Below, piece after piece: positions 1,823 through 52,816 of a DNA stretch of 52,867 nt. How positions within the stretch are numbered: the stretch's first letter is position 1; every line of letters begins with the position of its first letter. Source of the stretch: a virus; the IMG/VR virus record IMGVR_UViG_3300048927_000381, positions 1 through 52,867 of that record. The stretch is one strand, 5' to 3'. Under the pieces are notes generated by a model, which was not told the origin of the DNA, did not search any database, and saw only the letters and a program-made list of their open reading frames with translations. The position numbers were made by a program, and so were the translations under genes.

Positions 1823-1932
1823 TGCGGAAACGCATGTTGCAGATCGAGGTTTTCGTGATCGGCGGGCTGACCCTCATCAGCTCAGGGATGATGCTCCTGT
1901 CCGCCGCCCGCTGGATCGCCTCAAAGCTGTAG
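1822..1932 (+). CDS. Very small membrane peptide (36 aa), third of the cassette
   Basis: The frame begins at an ATG overlapping the stop of the previous gene (TGATG) and reads MRKRMLQIEVFVIGGLTLIS and then SGMMLLSAARWIASKL. It is a basic N-terminus plus one clear membrane span. It is short enough to be missed by length filters. Coupling to the two upstream membrane genes supports it. Its end overlaps the convergent HIRAN gene by 12 bases. The role is unknown; single-span phage peptides are often exclusion or lysis helpers, which is only a possibility here. Confidence 0.5.
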   Translation: MRKRMLQIEVFVIGGLTLISSGMMLLSAARWIASKL

Positions 1933-2331
1933 TCGCGTCGGAAAAATCCCGCAGAACTCATCGCGCGGCGGGCGTGGCGGTTCATGCGTCTCGCGCTTCG
2001 GCTTAGCGGGCGGCAACATAGGCGAGCGGCCGTCGAACCGTATGCGCGCCACAGCGCCGAAGGTATCCGGCCGATGGAAGATAGCGCGGGCCACAGCGAC
2101 CAGCCCCGCTACCCTCTCGGCATCGTCAGGCCAGAGATATCCGATCTGCACGCCTCGGGCCGAATAGACGCCGACCATCCGATTGCCGCCGCGGGTGCCG
2201 CGCTCGCGGCGCAGTTCCAGCGTCTCGCCCGGCTGGCAGTTTGCTATTTCGGTGCGGCGCTCGGCGGCGCGTGCGGTGCGCAAGTCGGCACCCAGAACCA
2301 TGAAAGCCCTGTCTCGCTGCCATCGATCCAT
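1921..2331 (-). CDS. HIRAN-domain protein
   Basis: The product is 136 residues from the ATG at 2331, which has AGGAA about 12 bases upstream; a longer TTG start at 2370 has no good ribosome site. The middle carries the HIRAN pattern: GETLELRRERGTRGGN, then MVGVYSARGVQIGYLWPDDA, then a final beta strand (ARIRFDG). HIRAN domains (as in HLTF/Rad5-type proteins) bind DNA 3' ends or stalled-fork structures; stand-alone copies occur in bacteria and phages. The C-terminus is a Pro/Arg-rich linker. It faces the membrane cassette. The domain call is good; the biological role is unknown. Confidence 0.75.
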   Translation of the reverse strand: MDRWQRDRAFMVLGADLRTARAAERRTEIANCQPGETLELRRERGTRGGNRMVGVYSARGVQIGYLWPDDAERVAGLVAVARAIFHRPDTFGAVARIRFDGRSPMLPPAKPKRETHEPPRPPRDEFCGIFPTRLQL

Positions 2332-2543
2332 GCCGATCAATTCTTCCTGCCCAGTGCGTCGTTCCACCAATCGGTATTCGCGCGGTGGTGCAGAAAGTCG
2401 CCAGCCGTCTTGGGCTTGCCTTTGCCTGCCTCTTTCCGCGCCGCTCGCTTTCCGTGGAAATATGCCGCCACAGCGCGCTCACCCGCGTTTTCGTCATCAT
2501 CATCATCCTGTCTCATGGTGAGAACGTAACAGGAACATTATTC

Positions 2544-2563
2544 GATTCGCTAGGGAGCGAATC
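2544..2563. repeat. Palindrome GATTCGCT-AGGG-AGCGAATC
   Basis: This is a perfect 8-bp inverted repeat around a 4-base centre, the size of a dimeric repressor operator. A related half-site (GATTCGCC) follows about 30 bases further on. It lies upstream of the HIRAN gene on the other strand, so it could control that gene. The operator role is inferred. Confidence 0.5.
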
Positions 2564-2943
2564 TTGCACCAGACTGAAATTGGTCGGGCGAAAACGATTC
2601 GCCTTACCTCGTTTTTGCCCCAGCGCCGTCCCACTACATATAGGCGCCCGCCGGTAGCACCGACGGCCTCGACCGGCCGCCTATTGCAAATACGTGGCAA
2701 GCCAAATTTATTTTCATTGGCAAATTGTTTCTCTTGCCTTCAAAAAAGGCCAACAAATCTGGGGTTTTTTGAGGATCTCTCGACCTGGTGGCCGACGGGC
2801 GCCGCCCGCTACCCGACCGGCCGGATGGTTCGACCGTCATTTACCCTCTTGCACCTGAATGCGGGTGTGCCACTATCCCTTGTATCGGGGCAACGCGAGT
2901 TACCCGATCTTCGGGCCTCAAAGCAGTCCATTGCTCTTGGGGA

Positions 2944-3019
2944 ACAGCGAAGAGATCGATCCCCTGCCTGGGTGACGATCCCTTCCACAAGGATCTTCCG
3001 TCATCGATCTCTTCGCTGT
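2944..3019. repeat. Long hairpin: 17-bp perfect inverted repeat
   Basis: Arms 2944-2960 (ACAGCGAAGAGATCGAT) and 3003-3019 are perfect reverse complements around a 42-base loop. The loop itself contains a smaller imperfect stem (GATCCCTT against AAGGATC). A nested stem of this length outside a gene suggests a structured RNA, a cruciform or a recombination remnant. I see no target-site duplication, so a miniature transposon is not supported. There is no T-run after it on either strand, so it is not a simple terminator. Confidence 0.6.
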
Positions 3020-3192
3020 CTCCGATGATACTCACGCGCAATGCGTATGCAACGTCAAATTTCCGCTGACAAAACGCGGCGCCTAATAATCGGCTGAATT
3101 CGGCGGTTTCATCACAACGATAAATTTTCCGTTCGTGTCATGTTCGCGGGCCCCAACTCTGCGGACGACCACCAGATCAGTTGCAAAAAGAA

Positions 3193-3237
3193 AAGCCACT
3201 TATCAAATTCCGCTTGCATGGGAATGATAAGTGGCTT
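3193..3237. repeat. 13-bp perfect inverted repeat hairpin
   Basis: Arms AAGCCACTTATCA (3193-3205) and TGATAAGTGGCTT (3225-3237) pair perfectly over a 19-base loop. The left arm is preceded by an A-rich run (AAAAAGAAA), so transcription on the minus strand would give a stem followed by a T-rich stretch. It could act as a leftward terminator, or as an operator upstream of the small regulator genes to the right. Confidence 0.5.
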
Positions 3238-3303
3238 ATCTATTGTCTTGTCAGACGGCGAGACCACCCCGGTAAGCCCGCTGACAGACCCGAAAGGAAA
3301 GAG

Positions 3304-3366
3304 ATGTCAGTCTCGATCCGGCTTCGGATTTGGAAAGTGAAGATCAGCTTCACAATCGAAATCTAG
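3304..3366 (+). CDS. Possible 20-aa peptide upstream of the XRE gene
   Basis: An ATG sits five bases behind a strong AAAGGAAAG ribosome site and opens a frame of 20 codons: MSVSIRLRIWKVKISFTIEI. The pattern is alternating basic and hydrophobic residues. The ribosome site is the main support. It could be a leader peptide for the downstream hairpin and regulator gene, or chance. Confidence 0.35.
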   Translation: MSVSIRLRIWKVKISFTIEI

Positions 3367-3371
3367 AAGCC

Positions 3372-3401
3372 CCCCGCCTCGGTCTAGCCACCGGGGCGGG
3401 G
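3372..3401. repeat. GC-rich stem-loop before the XRE gene
   Basis: CCCCGCCTCGG and CCGGGGCGGGG form an 11-bp stem with one mismatch and an 8-base loop. It lies between the possible 20-aa peptide and the regulator at 3434. No T-run follows on the plus strand. An attenuator or mRNA-stabilising role is possible. Confidence 0.45.
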
Positions 3402-3433
3402 ATAGGGGTTAGAATATGGGAAGGTGACGGATC

Positions 3434-3637
3434 ATGCAACCCGACGAATTGAAGGCGCTCCGCAAGGATGCCGGATGGACGCAGGATGAGATGGCGGAGG
3501 CAATCGGCGTTTCGCGTGTGCTGATCGGACAGATGGAACGGGGGCAGGCGCCCATCGAGCGCCGCACCGAACTGGCGGTCCGCTATGTCGTCGATCAGGC
3601 GAAGCTGTTCGCCCAAGGCGTAACGATTAACCCTTGA
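3434..3637 (+). CDS. Small XRE/Cro-type HTH regulator
   Basis: The 67-residue product is almost entirely a helix-turn-helix domain of the XRE class. It starts MQPDELKALRKDAGWTQDEM, with the recognition-helix region AIGVSRVLIGQMERGQAPIE. A GGGAAGG ribosome site precedes the ATG. It stands alone on the plus strand and converges with the SRAP gene. It probably binds an operator nearby, perhaps one of the inverted repeats to its left, to control accessory genes; it is separate from the main immunity repressor at 39.6-40.3 kb. Confidence 0.8.
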   Translation: MQPDELKALRKDAGWTQDEMAEAIGVSRVLIGQMERGQAPIERRTELAVRYVVDQAKLFAQGVTINP

Positions 3638-3674
3638 CGCAGGGGCGCGCGGATCGCTGTTCCCGCTTTCGATC

Positions 3675-4328
3675 TCAGAGCAGCGTCGGGCCGGGCGGCG
3701 CGCTGGCCTTTTTCCTGAACCACGGATTCGTTGTGTGCTCGACCGTCATCCGGTCGGCCGGATATGGGCGGTCGAACTGATATAGCTCTTCCAGCGGCGC
3801 GTGAAGCCAGGTGTCCCAATCCTGCGGATCGAGGATCACAGGCGAACGATCGTGAATATCGATCAGCTCCGGCGCATTGTCCGTCATCACGCCGGTATAG
3901 ACAGCGCCCCACTCATCGCTGTTCGACCACAGGCCCGCCCATGCGAAGATCGGCTGATCCCGCACCGATAGCCAAGTCTCGGTCATGCGCCCCGGTTCGC
4001 CCACGGCCTCCGCATAGCGTGCGGTCGGGATCAGGCATCGGTTGCGCGGGTCGACCGCCCAGCGCTTCCAATAGGTGCCCAGCTTGTCGAACCGGGCATT
4101 GTTCACCGGCTTCGGCTTCAGCGGCGCGCCGGTCTTCTTGCTCTTCTGCGCGAGCGGGAAGCCCCACGTCATCTGCTCCAGCACGCGCTGGCCGTCTTCC
4201 AGCCTCACGACCGTGCCGGGCTGCGCCGGATGCGTTTCGAGCGGGCCTTCATTGAACCGGATGCCACGGTGCGCGCCGAACAGGTTCAGCACCTTGTCTG
4301 TCGCGCCGCGTTCTGCCCGATTGCACAT
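3675..4328 (-). CDS. SOS response-associated peptidase (SRAP, YedK/HMCES family)
   Basis: The 217-residue product has the family's hallmarks. Cys2 directly after the initiator Met (MCNRAERG) forms the thiazolidine crosslink to abasic sites in single-stranded DNA. It also has the Asn/Arg motif (NNARFD, about residue 76), a Glu in the segment after RCLIPTARYAEAVG, and the His motif (HDRSPVILD). SRAP proteins shield abasic sites at forks and may act as autopeptidases. An alphaproteobacterial SOS box lies 49 bases upstream of the start, fitting damage-induced expression, although the YAEAV segment differs from the usual GFYEW. Confidence 0.92.
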   Translation of the reverse strand: MCNRAERGATDKVLNLFGAHRGIRFNEGPLETHPAQPGTVVRLEDGQRVLEQMTWGFPLAQKSKKTGAPLKPKPVNNARFDKLGTYWKRWAVDPRNRCLIPTARYAEAVGEPGRMTETWLSVRDQPIFAWAGLWSNSDEWGAVYTGVMTDNAPELIDIHDRSPVILDPQDWDTWLHAPLEELYQFDRPYPADRMTVEHTTNPWFRKKASAPPGPTLL

Positions 4329-5372: not shown

Positions 5373-6494
5373 ATGCGCTATTATTCGCTTGATGGCTTGC
5401 GGGGGCTGGCAGCACTAAGCGTTGTTTTGCACCATTGGCTCTATTGCTTCACTTCCTTTTGGAAGACGCCGTTTCAGTTGTTCGGTGCGGGCGATTTCGG
5501 GTTAGCGGCTCTATTGCTGCCCCCTTTATATCCATTCGTTAATGGTGGCGGGGCCGTGCTGATCTTCTTCGTCCTCAGCGGCTTTGTTTTGACGCTTGGC
5601 CTGGACCGGCCGCAGGCCCCATCCTACGGGGCGTATATCTTAAATCGCTTCGTTCGTATCTATCCCGCGTTCGCTGGCGGCATTTTACTCGCCGCTCTGG
5701 GCGTGGCGCTGGTTGGTTACGCTCCGATTGTCGGCCTAAGCGACTGGTTCAACCGAAATTGGTCGGAGTCTCTCAGCGCAGCTTTGATCGCGGGACACCT
5801 TGCCATGTTGGGCGGCGATGACTGGATCACCCTTAATAATGTGATGTGGTCCCTTGTGATCGAACTCCGCATTGCCATCATTATGCCGATAATCTGCATA
5901 GCCATGAAACGCGCGCCTGTTCGGGCGCTGGTAGCGTCCGCGCTCTTGAGTCTCGCTGGGCATATTGCAGCACGAATGTTTGACGGGCCGCTTGTGTCTT
6001 GGTTCGACACATTACGCTACGTCGTGCTGTTCGCGGCAGGGGCAGGTATGGCAATCTATCGCGAATGGGTCGTGGAAAAATTCCGGAATCTTCAAAAATG
6101 GCAACTTGTCGCCATGTTCGCGATTGCCATGGCCCTATACGGCTACCCATTCTCACGCGGCGTCCGCCTCTACGCCACCGCGCCAGCGGCAATCATCATC
6201 ACGGTTGCTGCGTTTGCATCCCCATACATTCGGGGCATATTGGAGCGCGCCCCATTCCAATATCTTGGCCGCGTTTCATACAGCTTGTATCTTGTTCACC
6301 TCCCCGTGATTTTGGCGGTGATGCACCTCTCTTATGGAAAGGTAGCGACGCCGATCCTTTTCGCCGTCAGCGTCGCCACCTCTTTTGCTCTGGCAGAGTT
6401 GCTTTACAGGACCGTCGAGAGGCCTTCACATAAGATTGCCCGCACCATTACTGGAAGGGCTACCGGCAAAACGTCGGTAGCATCCGTCGCATAA
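5373..6494 (+). CDS. Membrane O-acyltransferase (acyltransferase family 3, OafA-like)
   Basis: The 373-residue polytopic membrane protein starts RYYSLDGLRGLAALSVVLHH, the family signature with conserved Arg10 and His20. FFVLSGFVLTLGL and WSLVIELRIAIIMPIICI follow, also as in the family, and there are about ten spans. Members move acetyl groups from acetyl-CoA onto surface polysaccharide or LPS in the inner membrane. On prophages they typically cause serotype (lysogenic) conversion and block reinfection. A GGGGGA site precedes the ATG. Its GC content looks lower than its neighbours', a sign of separate acquisition. It converges with the tail spike gene, which looks like an esterase. Confidence 0.9.
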   Translation: MRYYSLDGLRGLAALSVVLHHWLYCFTSFWKTPFQLFGAGDFGLAALLLPPLYPFVNGGGAVLIFFVLSGFVLTLGLDRPQAPSYGAYILNRFVRIYPAFAGGILLAALGVALVGYAPIVGLSDWFNRNWSESLSAALIAGHLAMLGGDDWITLNNVMWSLVIELRIAIIMPIICIAMKRAPVRALVASALLSLAGHIAARMFDGPLVSWFDTLRYVVLFAAGAGMAIYREWVVEKFRNLQKWQLVAMFAIAMALYGYPFSRGVRLYATAPAAIIITVAAFASPYIRGILERAPFQYLGRVSYSLYLVHLPVILAVMHLSYGKVATPILFAVSVATSFALAELLYRTVERPSHKIARTITGRATGKTSVASVA

Positions 6495-41758: not shown

Positions 41759-42234
41759 ACATCTCCTACGCCACCCCAGCCGAGATGGCGGCCTGGGCGC
41801 TGTCCGCAATGACGCGCCAGCCGGATTTCATCATCGGCGACGATCCCGACGCGCCATACATGCTTCGTTGGTGGGTCGTCCCGCGCAACGAACAGATGAA
41901 CGTCTATTTGCACAAGATCCTGCGCGATGACGACGACCGGGCGTTGCACGATCACCCTTGGGCGAACACCTCCTATGTGATCGCCGGGCGCTATCGCGAG
42001 ATCACCCCCGACGGCGAGTTCATCCGCGGGCCGGGCGACGTCGTGACCCGCGAGGCGGGGGCGCTCCACCGCCTTGAGCTGATCGGCGGCGAGCCTTGCA
42101 TTTCCCTGTTCATGACCGGGCCGAAGGTTCGGGAATGGGGCTTCGCCTGCCCGAAAGGCTGGGTCCACTGGCGCGACTTCACCGGCGGCGTGAACGGCGA
42201 GCGGATCGGGCGCGGCTGCGGGGAAATGGCCTGA
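41755..42234 (+). CDS. Cupin-like phage protein
   Basis: The 159-residue product starts at the GTG overlapping the previous stop. The core ALHDHPWANTSYVIAGRYRE, then GDVVTREAGALHRLELI is a cupin pattern with a likely metal site formed by the HxH pair, a Glu and the later His. Cupin-fold phage proteins can be oxygenases or sugar-nucleotide enzymes; the substrate is unknown. It ends with GRGCGEMA. Confidence 0.65.
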   Translation: MNISYATPAEMAAWALSAMTRQPDFIIGDDPDAPYMLRWWVVPRNEQMNVYLHKILRDDDDRALHDHPWANTSYVIAGRYREITPDGEFIRGPGDVVTREAGALHRLELIGGEPCISLFMTGPKVREWGFACPKGWVHWRDFTGGVNGERIGRGCGEMA

Positions 42235-42644
42235 TGAAACTCGGGGTCGGCCATCACGAATATACGATCGTGAAGACGCGCTGGGGGCCGTGCCACGCCT
42301 TCAAGCAGGGCGATGGCCGTCTCATCCATTGCAGGCGCAATCCGGCGACCTGCGTCGCCTGCCACAACGACGGGGTGCCGCTGACGCCGCCCGATCCCAT
42401 CAACGCGATGATCGACGCCCTGCGCGTCAATTGGCGCAAACGCTGGGCGGAGAGCAACCGCCACCCGTCAGCACTGGCGGAGAACGAGATCTGGCAGGGC
42501 AATGGCCTGCACATCGTCGCACTGGCTGACGAAGACCCGGCCGACCGCACGGTGCTGGTCAGCTTTGGCAACGACCACACTATCACCGCCGCCGTCAGCG
42601 CGCTGGTGCATGTCCACAATGAAATGATCGGGAAGGCAGACTGA
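42234..42644 (+). CDS. Unknown protein between cupin and methyltransferase
   Basis: The 136-residue product (MKLGVGHHEYTIVKTRWGPC) has CRRNPATCVACHN, which may hold zinc, and a C-terminal half with VLVSFGNDHTITAAVSALV. One-base overlaps on both sides place it in a unit with the cupin-like protein and the C5 methyltransferase. Not recognised. Confidence 0.65.
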   Translation: MKLGVGHHEYTIVKTRWGPCHAFKQGDGRLIHCRRNPATCVACHNDGVPLTPPDPINAMIDALRVNWRKRWAESNRHPSALAENEIWQGNGLHIVALADEDPADRTVLVSFGNDHTITAAVSALVHVHNEMIGKAD

Positions 42645-44542
42645 TGGCTGGAATCATCGTCGACAATTTTGCAGGCGGCGGCGGCGCTTCGACCGGGATC
42701 GAGGCAGCGCTGGGCCGTGCGGTGGATATCGCCATCAACCATGATGAACAGGCGATACGCATGCATGAGGTGAACCATCCCGGCACCATGCATATTCGGA
42801 ACAATATCTGGCAGATCGACCCCAAGGAAGTCACCGGCGGCCAGCATGTCGAGCTCGCCTGGTTCAGCCCCGACTGCAAGCATTTCAGCAAGGCAAAGGG
42901 CGGCAAGCCACGCGAGAAGTCGATCCGGGATCTGGCGTGGGTGGTGGTTCTCTGGGCCCAGCGCGTGAAGCCCGACGTCATCCTGCTGGAGAATGTCGAG
43001 GAATTCCGCACCTGGGGGCCGCTCTGCGATGAGGGCAAGCCGATCAAGGAACGGGCGGGGGAGACGTTCGCCAAGTGGACCCGCGAATTGCGGAAGGCCG
43101 GGTATAAGATCCAGTGGAAGGAACTGCGGGCCTGCGACTACGGCGCGCCAACCATCCGCAAGCGCTTTTTCATGATTGCCCGGTCGGACGGGAATCCGAT
43201 CGTCTGGCCTGCGCCAACGCATGGCAAGCCCGGTTCGCCCGACGTGGTCAGCGGTAAGGTGCTGCCGTGGCGCACCGCGGCGGAGATCATCGATTGGTCG
43301 ATTCCGTGCCCGTCGATCTTCGAGCGTAAGAAGCCGCTGGCGGAAAAGACCCTGCGCCGGATCGCGCACGGCATCATGAAGTTCGTCATCAACAATCCGT
43401 CGCCGTTCATCGTGCCGCTGACCCATCACGGCAGCGCCGGGCGGTCCTATGGCCTGTCCGATCCGCTCTGCACCGTCACAGGTGCGAACCGAGGTGAGAT
43501 GGCGCTGGTGTCGCCGCACATCACAAAGTTCCGCGCGGGCGCGATCGGCCATGCTGTCGATGAGCCGATGCATACTGTCACCGCCAACAGCTACATCAAA
43601 CGGCCCGGTGGCTCCGCGCCTTTGGGCGTGGTCGAGGCGGCCATCGCACCTTTCTCGACCTATGCCCAGCAGGGCGGAGCGAATCGCTCGGTCGAAGACC
43701 CGATGCACACTATCTGCGCGTCGAAGAAGGACCAGAACTGCGTCGTCACCGCCGCGCTGTCTCCGGTGATCGTCGGATGCGGCGGTCGGCGCGGGCAGAG
43801 CGGGCCGGTCGGTCCTGAGCAGCCATTCCCGACGACCACGACAAAGGCCGACGCCTGCGTGGTCGCGGCGTTCATGCAGAAGTTCGCGGAGAACGGCCGT
43901 GGCGTTGATCCCAGCGAGCCGCTGCATACGGTCATGGCCGGCGCGCCCCGGCATGCCGTGGTCTGCGCGCATCTTGAACAGGCCAACGGCGGCCCGAACA
44001 ATGAGAACCTCGCCGGGCGCGCGGCGGATGCTCCGTTGTCGACGGTCGCCACGGCCGGGTCGCAGCAGCGGCTCGTCACGTCGAACCTGATCAAGCTGCG
44101 CGGGACAAGCGATCGGCACATCGAGGGCAGCGGCGCCGCTGTCGATGAACCCCTCAACACGATCAGCGCAGGCGGCATCCATACCGCAGAGGTCCGCGCG
44201 TTCTTGCTGAAATACTATGGCACGGACCAAGATCCGCAGCTTGGCGAGCCACTGCACACCGTGACGACCAAGGATCGCTACGGGCTGGTGACGGTCACCG
44301 TCGGCGGCGAGGAATATGTGATCGTGGACATCGGCATGCGGATGCTGACGCCGCGCGAGCTGTTCAACGCGCAGGGCTTCCCGGCGGACTATATCATCGA
44401 GCAGGACGCCCACGGGCTGCCCATCACCAAAACCGCCCAGGTCGCCAAGTGCGGCAACAGCGTCTGCCCGCCGATCGCGGAAGCGCTGGTGCGCGCGCAG
44501 TTCCCGGCCGAAGCGGAGCAGGGAGAGCGGGAAGCCGCATGA
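42644..44542 (+). CDS. C5-cytosine DNA methyltransferase with repeat-filled recognition region
   Basis: The 632-residue product is well above the usual 330-450. Motif I is DNFAGGGGASTG (7-18), the catalytic loop is FSPDCKHFS with Cys78 (PDC rather than the usual PPC), motif VI is ENVEEF (116-121), motif VIII is RKRFFMIA, and motifs IX-X are near ELFNAQGFPADY and GNSVCPPIAEAL. Between them, residues 273-541 hold eight copies of a (D/E)P(L/M)xTVT-type unit at about 30-50-residue spacing, replacing a normal target-recognition domain. It is solitary, with no endonuclease. It probably protects or marks phage DNA; the site is unknown. Confidence 0.92.
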   Translation: MAGIIVDNFAGGGGASTGIEAALGRAVDIAINHDEQAIRMHEVNHPGTMHIRNNIWQIDPKEVTGGQHVELAWFSPDCKHFSKAKGGKPREKSIRDLAWVVVLWAQRVKPDVILLENVEEFRTWGPLCDEGKPIKERAGETFAKWTRELRKAGYKIQWKELRACDYGAPTIRKRFFMIARSDGNPIVWPAPTHGKPGSPDVVSGKVLPWRTAAEIIDWSIPCPSIFERKKPLAEKTLRRIAHGIMKFVINNPSPFIVPLTHHGSAGRSYGLSDPLCTVTGANRGEMALVSPHITKFRAGAIGHAVDEPMHTVTANSYIKRPGGSAPLGVVEAAIAPFSTYAQQGGANRSVEDPMHTICASKKDQNCVVTAALSPVIVGCGGRRGQSGPVGPEQPFPTTTTKADACVVAAFMQKFAENGRGVDPSEPLHTVMAGAPRHAVVCAHLEQANGGPNNENLAGRAADAPLSTVATAGSQQRLVTSNLIKLRGTSDRHIEGSGAAVDEPLNTISAGGIHTAEVRAFLLKYYGTDQDPQLGEPLHTVTTKDRYGLVTVTVGGEEYVIVDIGMRMLTPRELFNAQGFPADYIIEQDAHGLPITKTAQVAKCGNSVCPPIAEALVRAQFPAEAEQGEREAA

Positions 44543-44886
44543 AACGCCCGCTCCCCGACTATCAGATCGGCGACGTCATGCCCGTGCCAGCCGATGCCGA
44601 CATGAACCTCGCCCAGATCCTGATGCGCAAGCGCGGGCTCATCGAGCGCAATGCCTCTCCTCGCTACCGGGGCGCCGCGGGGATCACGGCCCGGCGGATC
44701 AAGGCGAAGATGGACGAAGCGGAGCGCATCCGGACGGATCCGTTCGAGCAGGCGCAGACCTTCCTGCGGCGCAAGGGCTTCGTGCCGGTGTTCGCGGATG
44801 GAAAGCAATTTCGGGTCGGACGCCGCCTGTTCGCCAGCCGGGCGGAGGTCATTGAATTCGCTAAGTCGAAAGGATTTGAAGGATGA
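44539..44886 (+). CDS. Small basic protein after the methyltransferase
   Basis: The 115-residue product (MKRPLPDYQIGDVMPVPADA) is basic and helical, ending with a possible DNA-contact segment (RRKGFVPVFADGKQFRVGRR). ATGA overlaps on both sides. It may assist the flanking DNA enzymes. No domain recognised. Confidence 0.65.
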   Translation: MKRPLPDYQIGDVMPVPADADMNLAQILMRKRGLIERNASPRYRGAAGITARRIKAKMDEAERIRTDPFEQAQTFLRRKGFVPVFADGKQFRVGRRLFASRAEVIEFAKSKGFEG

Positions 44887-45458
44887 GCATTTTGGAACAG
44901 GCCACTCATATCGAAGTCGAAGCGCCCGTCCTCGCCACGCATGTCATGAACGACATCGAGACGCTCGGCACCGGCGACGATGCCCTGATCACATCGATCG
45001 GCGCGGTGAAGTTCAACGCCAACGGCATCATCGACGGCTTCCACATGGGCATCGACCCCAGCGATGCGCAGGCGATGGGCCTGAAGCTGGACGCGCGCAC
45101 CGTCTTCTGGTGGTTCGATGACGAGCGCGCCGCCGCCCGCCGTGCGTTGCTCGCCCTCGAGCGCCACCCGCTTGCTGTCGTGCTCTACCGCTATCGCGAA
45201 TGGTATGGCGACGAGAGCCTGCCGACGTGGGGCAACGGAGCCAGCTTCGACAATGTACTGATGCGCAGCGCTTTCCGCGTGGCCGGGCGCCTGATGCCGT
45301 GGGATTTCCGCTTTGACCGCTGCTACCGCACGATGAAGTCGCTGCCGGGCGCGCCTGCGATGGTGCGCGATGGCGTCCACCATGATGCGCTCGACGACGC
45401 GCGCAGCCAGGCGCTGCACCTAATCGACATCGCCAAGCATTTGGGGGTGCCGCTGTAA
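44883..45458 (+). CDS. DEDDh 3'-5' exonuclease (Rv2179c/RNase T-like)
   Basis: The 191-residue product shows the exonuclease motifs: NDIETLGTG (Asp24, Glu26), WGNGASFDN (Asp123) and HHDALDDA (His167, Asp172). WWFDDERAAARRAL is typical of the Rv2179c-like 3'-5' exoribonuclease family. It could trim RNA or single-stranded DNA during phage takeover. All catalytic residues appear present. Four-base overlap with the upstream gene and one base downstream. Confidence 0.88.
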   Translation: MSILEQATHIEVEAPVLATHVMNDIETLGTGDDALITSIGAVKFNANGIIDGFHMGIDPSDAQAMGLKLDARTVFWWFDDERAAARRALLALERHPLAVVLYRYREWYGDESLPTWGNGASFDNVLMRSAFRVAGRLMPWDFRFDRCYRTMKSLPGAPAMVRDGVHHDALDDARSQALHLIDIAKHLGVPL

Positions 45459-46462
45459 TGGTTGAGAACACGAAAATCGAATGGGCCGATCACACCTTCA
45501 ATCCGTGGATCGGTTGCACCAAGGTCGGCCCCGGCTGCGACCATTGCTATGCGGCCGACCTGTCGCAGGCCCGCCTGGGCGTGCCGTGGGGACCGGGCCA
45601 GCCGCGCCGCCACACTGCCGCGTCGACATGGACGCAGCCGCGCGCCTGGAACAACCGTGCGGCCAGGCTGGGCATCCGCTATCGCGTGTTCTGTGCCTCG
45701 CTAGCCGACGTGTTCGACAATGAGGTTCCAGCCGAATGGCGCGCCGAGCTGTTCCATCTGATCCGCGAGACGCCCCACCTCGACTGGCTGCTGGTGACGA
45801 AGCGCATCGGCAATGCCGCGAAGATGGCAGAAGCCGCGGGGGGCCTGCCCGATAACGTCTGGCTGGGAATCACCATCGTCAACCAGGCAGAGGCCAGCCG
45901 CGACATTTCGAAGCTGCTGGCTGTCGATGTCGGGGTTCGCTTCCTGTCGGCCGAGCCTCTGCTGGGGCAGATCGATCTGACCGAGGTGTCCGACGACAGC
46001 ACAGCGCTCGATCCCGAATGCTGGGGTGATTGCGCGTGCGACAGCCTCTATGGGCGTGATGCCGGTTGCCGCCGCAATGGCGGGGACGGCGACCTTCAGC
46101 GCAAGATCGATTGGGTGATCGTCGGCGGCGAAAGCGGGCCGAAGGCGCGGCCGATGCACCCGGATTGGGCGCGGAGCCTGCGCGATCAGTGCGAAGCCGC
46201 TGGCGTCCCATTCCTGTTCAAGCAGTGGGGCGAGTGGGAAGCCTCGCTCGACCGTGAGCGCGAGGATCCTGACTGGCGCGCCGATTACAGAAACGATTAT
46301 GTCGACCACGGCAAATCGCGCTGGCTCAATCTGGCGGGCGGCTGTGGCTTTCACGGTGAGCGCTTCCACGTGATTCGCCGCGTCGGGAAGAAGGCGGCCG
46401 GGCGACTGCTCGACGGTGTCCAGCATGACGGGGTGCCAGTGATGGAGGCCCGCCATGGATAA
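45458..46462 (+). CDS. Phage Gp37/Gp68 family protein (DUF5131, radical-SAM-like)
   Basis: The 334-residue product starts KIEWADHTFNPWIGCTKVGP and has Cys20, Cys27 and Cys30 (CX6CX2C), a predicted iron-sulfur cluster motif. NVWLGITIVN, RFLSAEPLLG and DWVIVGGESGPKARPM follow, all signatures of DUF5131. The activity is not established; a radical-SAM-type nucleic acid or nucleotide modification is the usual prediction. A Cys-rich insert (CWGDCACDSLYGRDAGCRRN) near residue 190 may bind a second metal. The three-Cys-motif partner gene often found beside DUF5131 is absent. Confidence 0.9.
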   Translation: MVENTKIEWADHTFNPWIGCTKVGPGCDHCYAADLSQARLGVPWGPGQPRRHTAASTWTQPRAWNNRAARLGIRYRVFCASLADVFDNEVPAEWRAELFHLIRETPHLDWLLVTKRIGNAAKMAEAAGGLPDNVWLGITIVNQAEASRDISKLLAVDVGVRFLSAEPLLGQIDLTEVSDDSTALDPECWGDCACDSLYGRDAGCRRNGGDGDLQRKIDWVIVGGESGPKARPMHPDWARSLRDQCEAAGVPFLFKQWGEWEASLDREREDPDWRADYRNDYVDHGKSRWLNLAGGCGFHGERFHVIRRVGKKAAGRLLDGVQHDGVPVMEARHG

Positions 46463-47362: not shown

Positions 47363-47576
47363 GAAGCTGCCGGACTGGCCGGCAGGCATGAACCGCGAAA
47401 TGGCGCTGGCCTATACCGGCGTCAGCGGTGAGCAGATGAAGGAATGGGAGCGGTCGGGCAAGGTGCAGTTCTGCCCGCGCGGTCCGCGTGGTCAGATGCT
47501 GGCCCTGCGCTCTACCCTGGACGCCGCCCTTGCGGAACTGTTCGGCGCCGCTGCTGGCGGAGCGCCCGAATTCTGA
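47346..47576 (+). CDS. Excisionase-like small DNA-binding protein
   Basis: The 76-residue product has NREMALAYTGVSGEQMKEWE followed by a wing-like GKVQFCPRGPRGQMLAL and a final helix. This MerR/Xis-type winged-helix pattern, directly before the integrase with a TGATG overlap, suggests the recombination directionality factor. Placement in the same message as the integrase means both are made after induction. Confidence 0.7.
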   Translation: MGLALEKLPDWPAGMNREMALAYTGVSGEQMKEWERSGKVQFCPRGPRGQMLALRSTLDAALAELFGAAAGGAPEF

Positions 47577-48868
47577 TGGGCAAGGCAACGATCAAACTCC
47601 CGGCCTATGTCAGCCGCGTTCGCCTTGCGTCCGGCGAATATGCCTATTTCTGGAAGCTGCCGAGCTGGGCCCGGCCGACGAAGGACAAGAAGACCGGCAA
47701 GGAAACCCCGGTGATTCGGCATGGCCATCCGTGCCCGGTCGCATCCTCGCCTCTCGGCACCAGCTTCGATGCGATGGTGCAGAAGGCGGAGGCCCTGAAC
47801 GACACGCTCAGGGAGTGGCGCCTTGGCATGGAGCGTAAGACGATCAAGCCGGGCACGATCGCCTGGCTGTTCGTCTGGTATCGCGAACAGGACCGCTTCA
47901 CGAAGAACAAGCCGAAGACCCAGCGCGACTATAAGCGGCTGATGGATATGCTGGTGGATTTCCCGACCAGGTCCGGCACCAAGCTCGGCGTCTGGGCGGC
48001 GGGCAATCTCGATGCCGGGTCCGTCGACGGGCTCTACAAAAAGATGCGGGAGACGAAGGGCGAGCGCGAGGCGTCCTATGCGATGCAGGTCTGCCGCCTC
48101 GTCTGGAAATGGGCGGTCCGCTACAACAAGACGACCGGCGTCAACACCAACCCGTTCGCGGGCATGGGTATCAAGAGCACCGCCGCCGGGGAGAACCGGG
48201 CGACCAGCCGCGCCGAATACGACCTCTATCGCGCGACGGCGCGCGAACTCGGCTATCAGAACATGGCCGCCGCCGCCGCGATCTGCTTCGAGGGCTGCCA
48301 GCGCGTCAGCCAAGTGTTTGGCCTCTGGCCTGACGAAGAGAAGGAGCGGGAGGGCAAGGTGCCGCCGGCCGGGCTGCAATGGTCCGTCTACAAGCCGGGC
48401 ATTGCCATCGCGCTCAACCAGCGGAAGACGGGCAACCCGGTCTGGCTGGAACTGACGATCGAGGTCGATGGCGAGACGGTCGAGCTATATCCCGACCTGG
48501 AGCAGGAGCTGCGCGACCTGCGCGCCCGCGCGCCGCGGGACGAGCTCGACCAGCCGACCGGGCCGATAATCGTCGATGAGCGATCCGGCAAGCCGTTCGA
48601 CCCGCGCTGGCTGTCCACCGTCCACCGGCGCATCTGCGACAAGGCGGGCTTGCCCAAGGCGATGACGTTCACCGGGTTCCGGCACGGCGGCATCACCGAA
48701 ATCGGCGATTCGGGCGAGGTCGATGTCCGGCCGATCTCCGGCCACAAGACGCTCGCCCAGACGCGCACCTACAACAAGGCGACGGCCGAGAAGGGCCGCC
48801 GCATCGCACTCAAGCGCCGCGAGCACATCGAGCAGCTCGGCGCCCGGGAAGAAGGAAAGGGAGATTGA
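47576..48868 (+). CDS. int: Tyrosine recombinase integrase
   Basis: The 430-residue product starts at the ATG that overlaps the upstream stop. Its N-terminal part binds arm sites, a SAM-like core-binding domain spans about 90-190, and the catalytic domain has Arg243 (CQRVSQVF), Lys284 (NQRKTG), Arg369-His370 (FTGFRHGG), His390 (SGHKTL) and Tyr399 (RTYNKAT). The first His of the usual HxxR is a Thr (Thr366). It should join attP to the tRNA-Lys 3' end. Unusually the gene is about 3.9 kb from attR, with five further genes between. Confidence 0.94.
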   Translation: MGKATIKLPAYVSRVRLASGEYAYFWKLPSWARPTKDKKTGKETPVIRHGHPCPVASSPLGTSFDAMVQKAEALNDTLREWRLGMERKTIKPGTIAWLFVWYREQDRFTKNKPKTQRDYKRLMDMLVDFPTRSGTKLGVWAAGNLDAGSVDGLYKKMRETKGEREASYAMQVCRLVWKWAVRYNKTTGVNTNPFAGMGIKSTAAGENRATSRAEYDLYRATARELGYQNMAAAAAICFEGCQRVSQVFGLWPDEEKEREGKVPPAGLQWSVYKPGIAIALNQRKTGNPVWLELTIEVDGETVELYPDLEQELRDLRARAPRDELDQPTGPIIVDERSGKPFDPRWLSTVHRRICDKAGLPKAMTFTGFRHGGITEIGDSGEVDVRPISGHKTLAQTRTYNKATAEKGRRIALKRREHIEQLGAREEGKGD

Positions 48869-52740: not shown

Positions 52741-52789
52741 TGGTGAGCCCTGCTGGATTCGAACCAGCGACCTACTGATTAAAAGTCAG
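52741..52789. repeat. attR core (49 bp)
   Basis: Identical to attL 940-988. It forms the 3' part of the intact tRNA-Lys, so the phage attP sequence restores the tRNA end from the CCA to the anticodon stem on integration. Confidence 0.95.
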
Positions 52790-52816
52790 TTGCTCTACCG
52801 ACTGAGCTAAGGGCCC
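52741..52816 (-). tRNA. tRNA-Lys (anticodon UUU)
   Basis: The 76-base minus-strand gene folds to a full cloverleaf. The acceptor stem is GGGCCCT with AGGGCTC (one G-U pair), the anticodon arm has loop CTTTTAA, the T arm has TTCGAAT, and CCA is encoded. It is the integration target and remains intact because the phage core supplies its 3' part. Its 5' end and promoter belong to the host flank. Confidence 0.96.

Follow-up and report, generated by a model that had tools for sequence, protein, structure and literature searches.

The C5-cytosine methyltransferases of the Bacillus phages SPR, phi3T, H2 and SPbeta (mtbP) are described as multispecific enzymes with tandem target-recognition domains (TRDs), each of which reads one target (PMC8936443, PMC12707154, PMC5923457). 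A short motif of C5 methyltransferases, the TL motif, has also been published (PMC2413257). Two m5C enzymes from P. aminophilus that belong to the family analyzed here have been assayed under another label; they are related to a ~700-aa enzyme from a Sinorhizobium prophage, with homologs that include one from Rhizobium phage RR1-A (PMC5537653). The same report names p29 of Aeromonas phage ARM81mr as an m5C methyltransferase with relaxed specificity, and describes one homolog, Phi2LM21_p23, as inactive in E. coli (PMC5537653). Our literature search, outside of which subscription papers mostly lay, returned no link between relaxed specificity and repeats or TRD cassettes.

Here, we analyze a methyltransferase of this family encoded in a 52.9-kb virus record (hereafter the window, meaning the whole stretch of 52,867 nucleotides), together with 200 of its homologs, and propose that its long repeat region is an array of small, exchangeable TRDs.

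Results

The methyltransferase gene and its surroundings

The gene starts with ATG and encodes a 632-aa C5-cytosine methyltransferase (Table 1), which matches PF00145 over residues 6-184 (E 6.7e-31) and phrog_116, annotated as 'DNA methyltransferase', over residues 4-629 (E 1e-100). Motifs I, IV (with its Cys), VI (ENV), VIII, IX and X follow one another in that order, and the sequences FAGGGG, ENV, RKR, RMLTPRE and GNSV are all intact. The active-site loop SPDC, already pointed out in the preliminary description, occupies residues 75-78 and is invariant in an alignment of 90 homologs; Cys78 is the predicted catalytic cysteine. AlphaFold models the catalytic part with pLDDT values mostly above 85, and the Foldseek matches are C5 methyltransferase cores only. 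In CmoX carboxymethyltransferases, an Arg replaces the motif X Asn (N304 in HhaI) (PMC12783734). We rejected this activity for the window enzyme because the corresponding Asn605 is kept in GNSV, with no Arg.

Stop and start codons overlap along the run of neighboring genes, as in a translationally coupled operon, and the run includes the cupin-like, DEDDh exonuclease and DUF5131 genes of the operon originally proposed. The cupin-like ORF scores 25.6 bits against Cupin_2, which is under the 27.2 cut-off. The scanned neighbors include no restriction endonuclease, and the window carries phage terminase, portal, capsid and tail genes as well as an integrase (47576-48865). The methyltransferase is thus phage-borne and, as first described, solitary. 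Its nearest homologs are found in Novosphingobium genomes, which suggests that the window is a sphingomonad prophage.

Several other features of the window deserve mention. A tRNA-Lys (ttt) gene lies near the end of the record (52741-52816, minus strand) and may, with the integrase, mark an attachment site. An O-acetyltransferase gene (5373-6494, plus strand) matches phrog_3333 and also phrog_6705, O-antigen acetylase, and is a possible lysogenic-conversion gene. The DUF5131 protein begins with a cysteine-rich sequence, GCTKVGPGCDHCYA. It matches TIGR04471, 'radical SAM mobile pair protein A', below the threshold (E 7e-13), and also the PADLOC models PDC-M30B and PDC-M41B.

Table 1. Features of the methyltransferase gene and its operon, in window coordinates.
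Feature	Position	Strand	Basis
Cupin-like gene, upstream in operon; phrog_4786 'cysteine dioxygenase'	41761..42234	+	Cupin_2, phrog_4786
Gene of unknown function, upstream in operon, overlapping the methyltransferase start	42231..42644	+	ORF call; context only
C5-cytosine methyltransferase, whole ORF	42644..44542	+	PF00145, phrog_116
Catalytic N-terminal part, residues 1-254: motif I FAGGGGAS, motif IV SPDC, ENV, motif VIII RACDYGAPTIRKRFF	42644..43405	+	PF00145; invariant columns in 90 homologs; AlphaFold
Unit 1, type G: FIVPLTHHGSAGRSYGLSDPLCTVTGANRGEMALVSP	43406..43516	+	45 copies in 200 homologs
Unit 2, type H: HITKFRAGAIGHAVDEPMHTVTANSYIKRPGGSAPLGVVEA...	43517..43648	+	45 copies in 200 homologs
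Unit 3, type J: PFSTYAQQGGANRSVEDPMHTICASKKDQNCVVTAA	43649..43759	+	40 copies in 200 homologs
Unit 4, type I: PVIVGCGGRRGQSGPVGPEQPFPTTTTKADACVVAA	43760..43870	+	42 copies in 200 homologs
Unit 5, type R: FMQKFAENGRGVDPSEPLHTVMAGAPRHAVVCA	43871..43969	+	20 copies in 200 homologs
Unit 6, type P: HLEQANGGPNNENLAGRAADAPLSTVATAGSQQRLVTS	43970..44083	+	22 copies in 200 homologs
Unit 7, type B: NLIKLRGTSDRHIEGSGAAVDEPLNTISAGGIHTAEVRA	44084..44200	+	110 copies in 200 homologs; common penultimate unit
Unit 8, type A: FLLKYYGTDQDPQLGEPLHTVTTKDRYGLVTVTV	44201..44302	+	164 copies in 200 homologs; near-constant last unit
C-terminal motif IX (RMLTPRELFNAQGFP) and motif X (CGNSVCPP)	44303..44542	+	Motif alignment; hhalign register
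Gene of unknown function, downstream in operon	44539..44886	+	ORF call; context only
DEDDh exonuclease, Rv2179c-like	44883..45458	+	PF16473; context only
DUF5131 protein	45458..46462	+	Profile match; context only

Eight units with TL-motif cores

The stretch between motifs VIII and IX consists of eight units of 33-44 aa each (~35 aa). The preliminary description had put it at about 270 residues; the region is real, but slightly longer, at ~299 residues (255-553). The eight units score 17.5-38 bits with a profile HMM, a score that is not independent, as they are among its seeds. For an independent repeat test, we used the core of the literature TL motif in the simple form P..T[ILV][TASV]. The window's repeat region contains five exact cores, compared to 0.12 in shuffled sequence. 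Across the 200 homologs, the repeats hold 4.5 cores per protein, compared to 0.10 in shuffled sequence and 0.01 in the catalytic part, and 898 of 1204 units match the motif with their core. These results confirm a C5 methyltransferase with eight repeat units between motifs VIII and IX, as had been read from the sequence at the outset.

The structure prediction suggested for the repeats succeeded only outside them: whereas the catalytic core is modeled confidently, the repeats reach pLDDT values of ~30-50, both in the window protein and in a three-unit homolog, and give no usable fold. Because AlphaFold is confident in the core only, none of our claims rests on the fold of the repeats, which are rich in glycine. 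A search of the PDB with a profile of 20 units gave no significant match.

Unit types are shared between phages and never repeated within a protein

The methyltransferase belongs to the widespread phage family phrog_116. In tblastn searches, it matched 551 phage records and 397 plasmid records, with many of the weaker matches restricted to the catalytic core. Starting with three queries, we collected 276 proteins from phage records and from contigs of viruses and bacteria. By our criteria, 250 were complete, and 202 were non-redundant; 200 were analyzed. They contain 1204 units, from two to ten per protein, which we sorted into 94 types; 47 types recur three times or more. Unit boundaries were derived by script, and a few insertion-bearing cassettes may be split. 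The window array is one of the larger recognition arrays of the family. Its repeats had been taken for degenerate copies of one motif, but are rather units of different types, and every one of these types is conserved in many phages. Type J (QQGG.NRSVEDP.HTI.AS.KDQN), for example, is present in Novosphingobium, Rhizobium, Nostoc and Paracoccus phages, and type I is the first unit in one homolog (L002) and the second in another (L006).

Tandem repeats usually arise by internal duplication. In the present family, with each protein's last unit omitted, we found no two units of the same type within one protein among ~1000 units, compared to ~104 such duplicates expected (minimum of 300 shuffles, 79) when units are shuffled among proteins. 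The count stays at zero throughout clustering thresholds of 0.4-0.6, for which the shuffled means are 48-123. Correspondingly, the median normalised score of a unit's best match is 0.20 inside its own protein and 0.88 in another protein. Although the shuffle ignores phylogeny, common descent by itself would not keep a protein free of duplicates.

The sample also shows some local peculiarities. A zinc-ribbon-like insertion (CxxC...CxxC) occurs in some cassettes or adjacent linkers of the repeat regions of L021, L037, L060, L072, L075 and L085; examples are HCAACGEENGGTRWPTCEWCGHE (L021) and HCRHCSAEFDVEPTCGCTACGHE (L085). In L008, a MAG, the repeat region of the homolog at 1891-4311 has ~170 low-complexity, apparently out-of-frame residues between two units, perhaps due to a frameshift or an assembly error. 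A further multi-unit family member, L285, is a 761-aa open frame in the same genome as the homolog L005. In Rhizobium phage RR1-A (L033) and Escherichia phage Eeyore (L339), a phosphoadenosine phosphosulfate reductase-like gene adjoins the methyltransferase gene.

Cassettes are gained, lost and replaced while each unit is conserved

Of 89 protein pairs whose catalytic parts are at least 93% identical, 80 differ in their arrays. The differences in close pairs are single-unit gains, losses or replacements, as illustrated by O-S-N-A versus O-N-A (L178 and L180), D-C-B-A versus K-D-C-B-A (L121 and L150), and K-I-F-C-B-A versus K-I-Bl-C-B-A (L219 and L233); in the pairs examined, the shared segments and flanks are mostly 80-97% identical at the DNA level. 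Even at 90-100% catalytic identity, cassettes are only partially shared (Jaccard 0.54). The order of the units is largely, but not strictly, kept, the minority order accounting for 6.7% of instances. The E. coli genomes hold few, nearly identical copies and gave no information on cassette exchange. Within shared types, dN/dS is 0.09-0.26 for the window's eight units and 0.09 for the catalytic part; these are rough values, with dS near saturation, and they indicate purifying selection on each unit.

A single unit makes up the TRD of DISARM relatives

When a profile of the last unit and the C-terminus was compared to ordinary C5 enzymes with hhalign (probability 98, E 2.6e-13), PLHTVTT fell on the ordinary TRD core, in register with motif IX. 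The unit HMM alone is at noise level on the TRDs of ordinary C5 methyltransferases and gives -1.2 and -2.3 bits for the two TL cores of SPbeta. Any homology of the units to ordinary and SPbeta TRDs therefore rests on the register and the short TL motif.

A one-unit form is seen in the DrmMII-type enzymes, found via the PADLOC model PDLC02654. Their core is related, and its motif IV reads SPEC. These enzymes contain exactly one unit, for example, FLIVYYGSDAAGGWQPLDRPIRTLTTLDRFGLV, which fills the whole stretch from the catalytic part to motif IX and scores 18.6-19.9 bits, compared to 3.0 for the best shuffled control. One of the genes (L375) lies beside drmA and drmB. The single unit is nearest to type A in L345 and L375, while types Ag and A score about equal in L349. 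As one unit constitutes the entire TRD in these enzymes, a unit is able to act as a complete TRD, to which the phage enzymes add as many as nine others, and this one-unit form is the strongest evidence that the units are target-recognition domains. The repeats had been thought to look unlike ordinary TRDs, a view that we abandon given that the units share the TL motif of ordinary TRDs as their core, that the last unit lies in register and that the DrmMII-type TRD is one unit.

The window methyltransferase itself scores 90.7 bits against PDLC02654. No drm genes, neither drmA nor drmB, were found among its scanned neighbors in the window. At 7722-10213 of L375, the DISARM operon also has, adjacent to the one-unit methyltransferase, a protein that matches PDLC03203, a methyl-directed restriction enzyme of type II (E 2.5e-160). 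In the original DISARM system, DrmMII reportedly methylates CCWGG. Such a mark would be in line with the reported protection of CCWGG in P. aminophilus.

Discussion

A model for the enzyme

We consider it likely, with a probability of roughly 0.8, that the window encodes a multispecific solitary phage C5 methyltransferase in which each unit is a mini-TRD with its own target, one being used at a time, and which probably serves anti-restriction. Several target specificities had been among the initial suggestions for the repeats, and this is the one favored by the evidence. The enzyme has the architecture of a multispecific C5 methyltransferase, with tandem units, TL-type cores and the last unit in the TRD register, and the catalytic core, the units and their motifs, the non-redundancy, the cassette turnover, the selection and the one-unit relatives are all matters of observation.

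Mechanistically, the catalytic core would methylate cytosine using SAM, rather than carboxy-SAM, since the motif X Asn is kept. Each unit, as a compact TL-motif TRD, would read its own short DNA target, and the enzyme would engage one unit at a time. With eight units, a single gene could methylate up to eight kinds of sites in the phage DNA, the product being 5mC in several motifs. The benefit would most likely be protection against many host restriction systems. Because cassettes are gained, lost and exchanged whole, the repertoire could be altered rapidly around an unchanged core.

Other ways to account for the repeats seem less satisfactory. If the units jointly bound DNA loosely, so that many cytosines were methylated with little sequence preference, the published term 'relaxed specificity' and the partial protection of many sites (PMC3925955, PMC5537653) would be readily explained. 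However, a non-specific binder needs no non-redundant set of ~47 recurrent types that are conserved between phages and under purifying selection, and in the single-unit DrmMII form one unit can be a complete TRD, for which reasons we regard low specificity as unlikely. It is more improbable still that the units form one superhelical array on one long DNA site in the manner of TALE or PUF repeats. Tandem units of ~35 aa in a partly conserved order speak for such joint reading, but a modular base code would reuse its modules, whereas no type is reused within any of the 200 proteins. The number of units moreover varies between near-identical enzymes, so the length of the site would shift each time, and for one relative, methylation of several short sites that are unrelated to one another has been published (PMC3925955).

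The repeats might, finally, have nothing to do with DNA recognition and instead bind proteins or build a scaffold or filament. Their glycine content and low AlphaFold confidence would be compatible with this, but the protein has no other TRD, the unit core is a correctly placed TL motif, and DrmMII has one unit only. We therefore give this explanation very little credence, and nothing in the analysis supports the filament or the scaffold role raised in the preliminary description.

Implications

Beyond the preferred model of one mini-TRD per target, we tentatively suggest that phages share a library of exchangeable mini-TRDs (the 94 types, of which 47 recur three times or more), from which non-redundant sets of up to ten are assembled on one core. 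The near-constant last cassette would then be the counterpart of the DISARM DrmMII unit, so that the DISARM self-mark would be copied as well; we hold this whole proposal to be possible rather than probable. If these ideas are correct, one ~35-aa cassette is a complete, portable recognition module for C5 methyltransferases, of which dozens have been assorted in nature in countless combinations, and the 'relaxed specificity' published for the family would be explained. The targets of individual cassettes could then be assigned by comparing methylomes between phages that have a given cassette in common or differ in it. This would also reveal the means by which temperate phages keep up with restriction by their hosts, and would provide parts for engineered site-specific methylation.

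Comparison with known systems

Multispecific phage enzymes with tandem TRDs are already known; what is new here is the unusually large and modular recognition array. Like the Bacillus phage enzymes, the window methyltransferase is a solitary phage C5 enzyme that carries a tandem series of TRDs from motif VIII to motif IX, and SPbeta mtbP has two TL-like cores ahead of motif IX. However, the eight units of the window enzyme, and up to ten in its family, are far more numerous and shorter, its motif IV is SPDC rather than of the PC type, and the match to SPbeta at the level of unit sequences is not significant. The phrog_116 enzymes of phages and prophages (those of Paracoccus prophages, ARM81mr p29, RR1-A and F116) are members of the same family and carry the same unit types, the window protein showing 41-49% full-length similarity to many phage members. 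The papers covered here describe them only as m5C enzymes of large size and relaxed specificity; we parsed five units, D-X-C-B-A, in ARM81mr p29 and nine in RR1-A. DrmMII of DISARM (PDLC02654), in turn, shares a related core (SPEC) and a unit that is closest to the window's last, type A, but has this single unit and belongs to a host defence operon, whereas the phage enzyme of the window carries eight.
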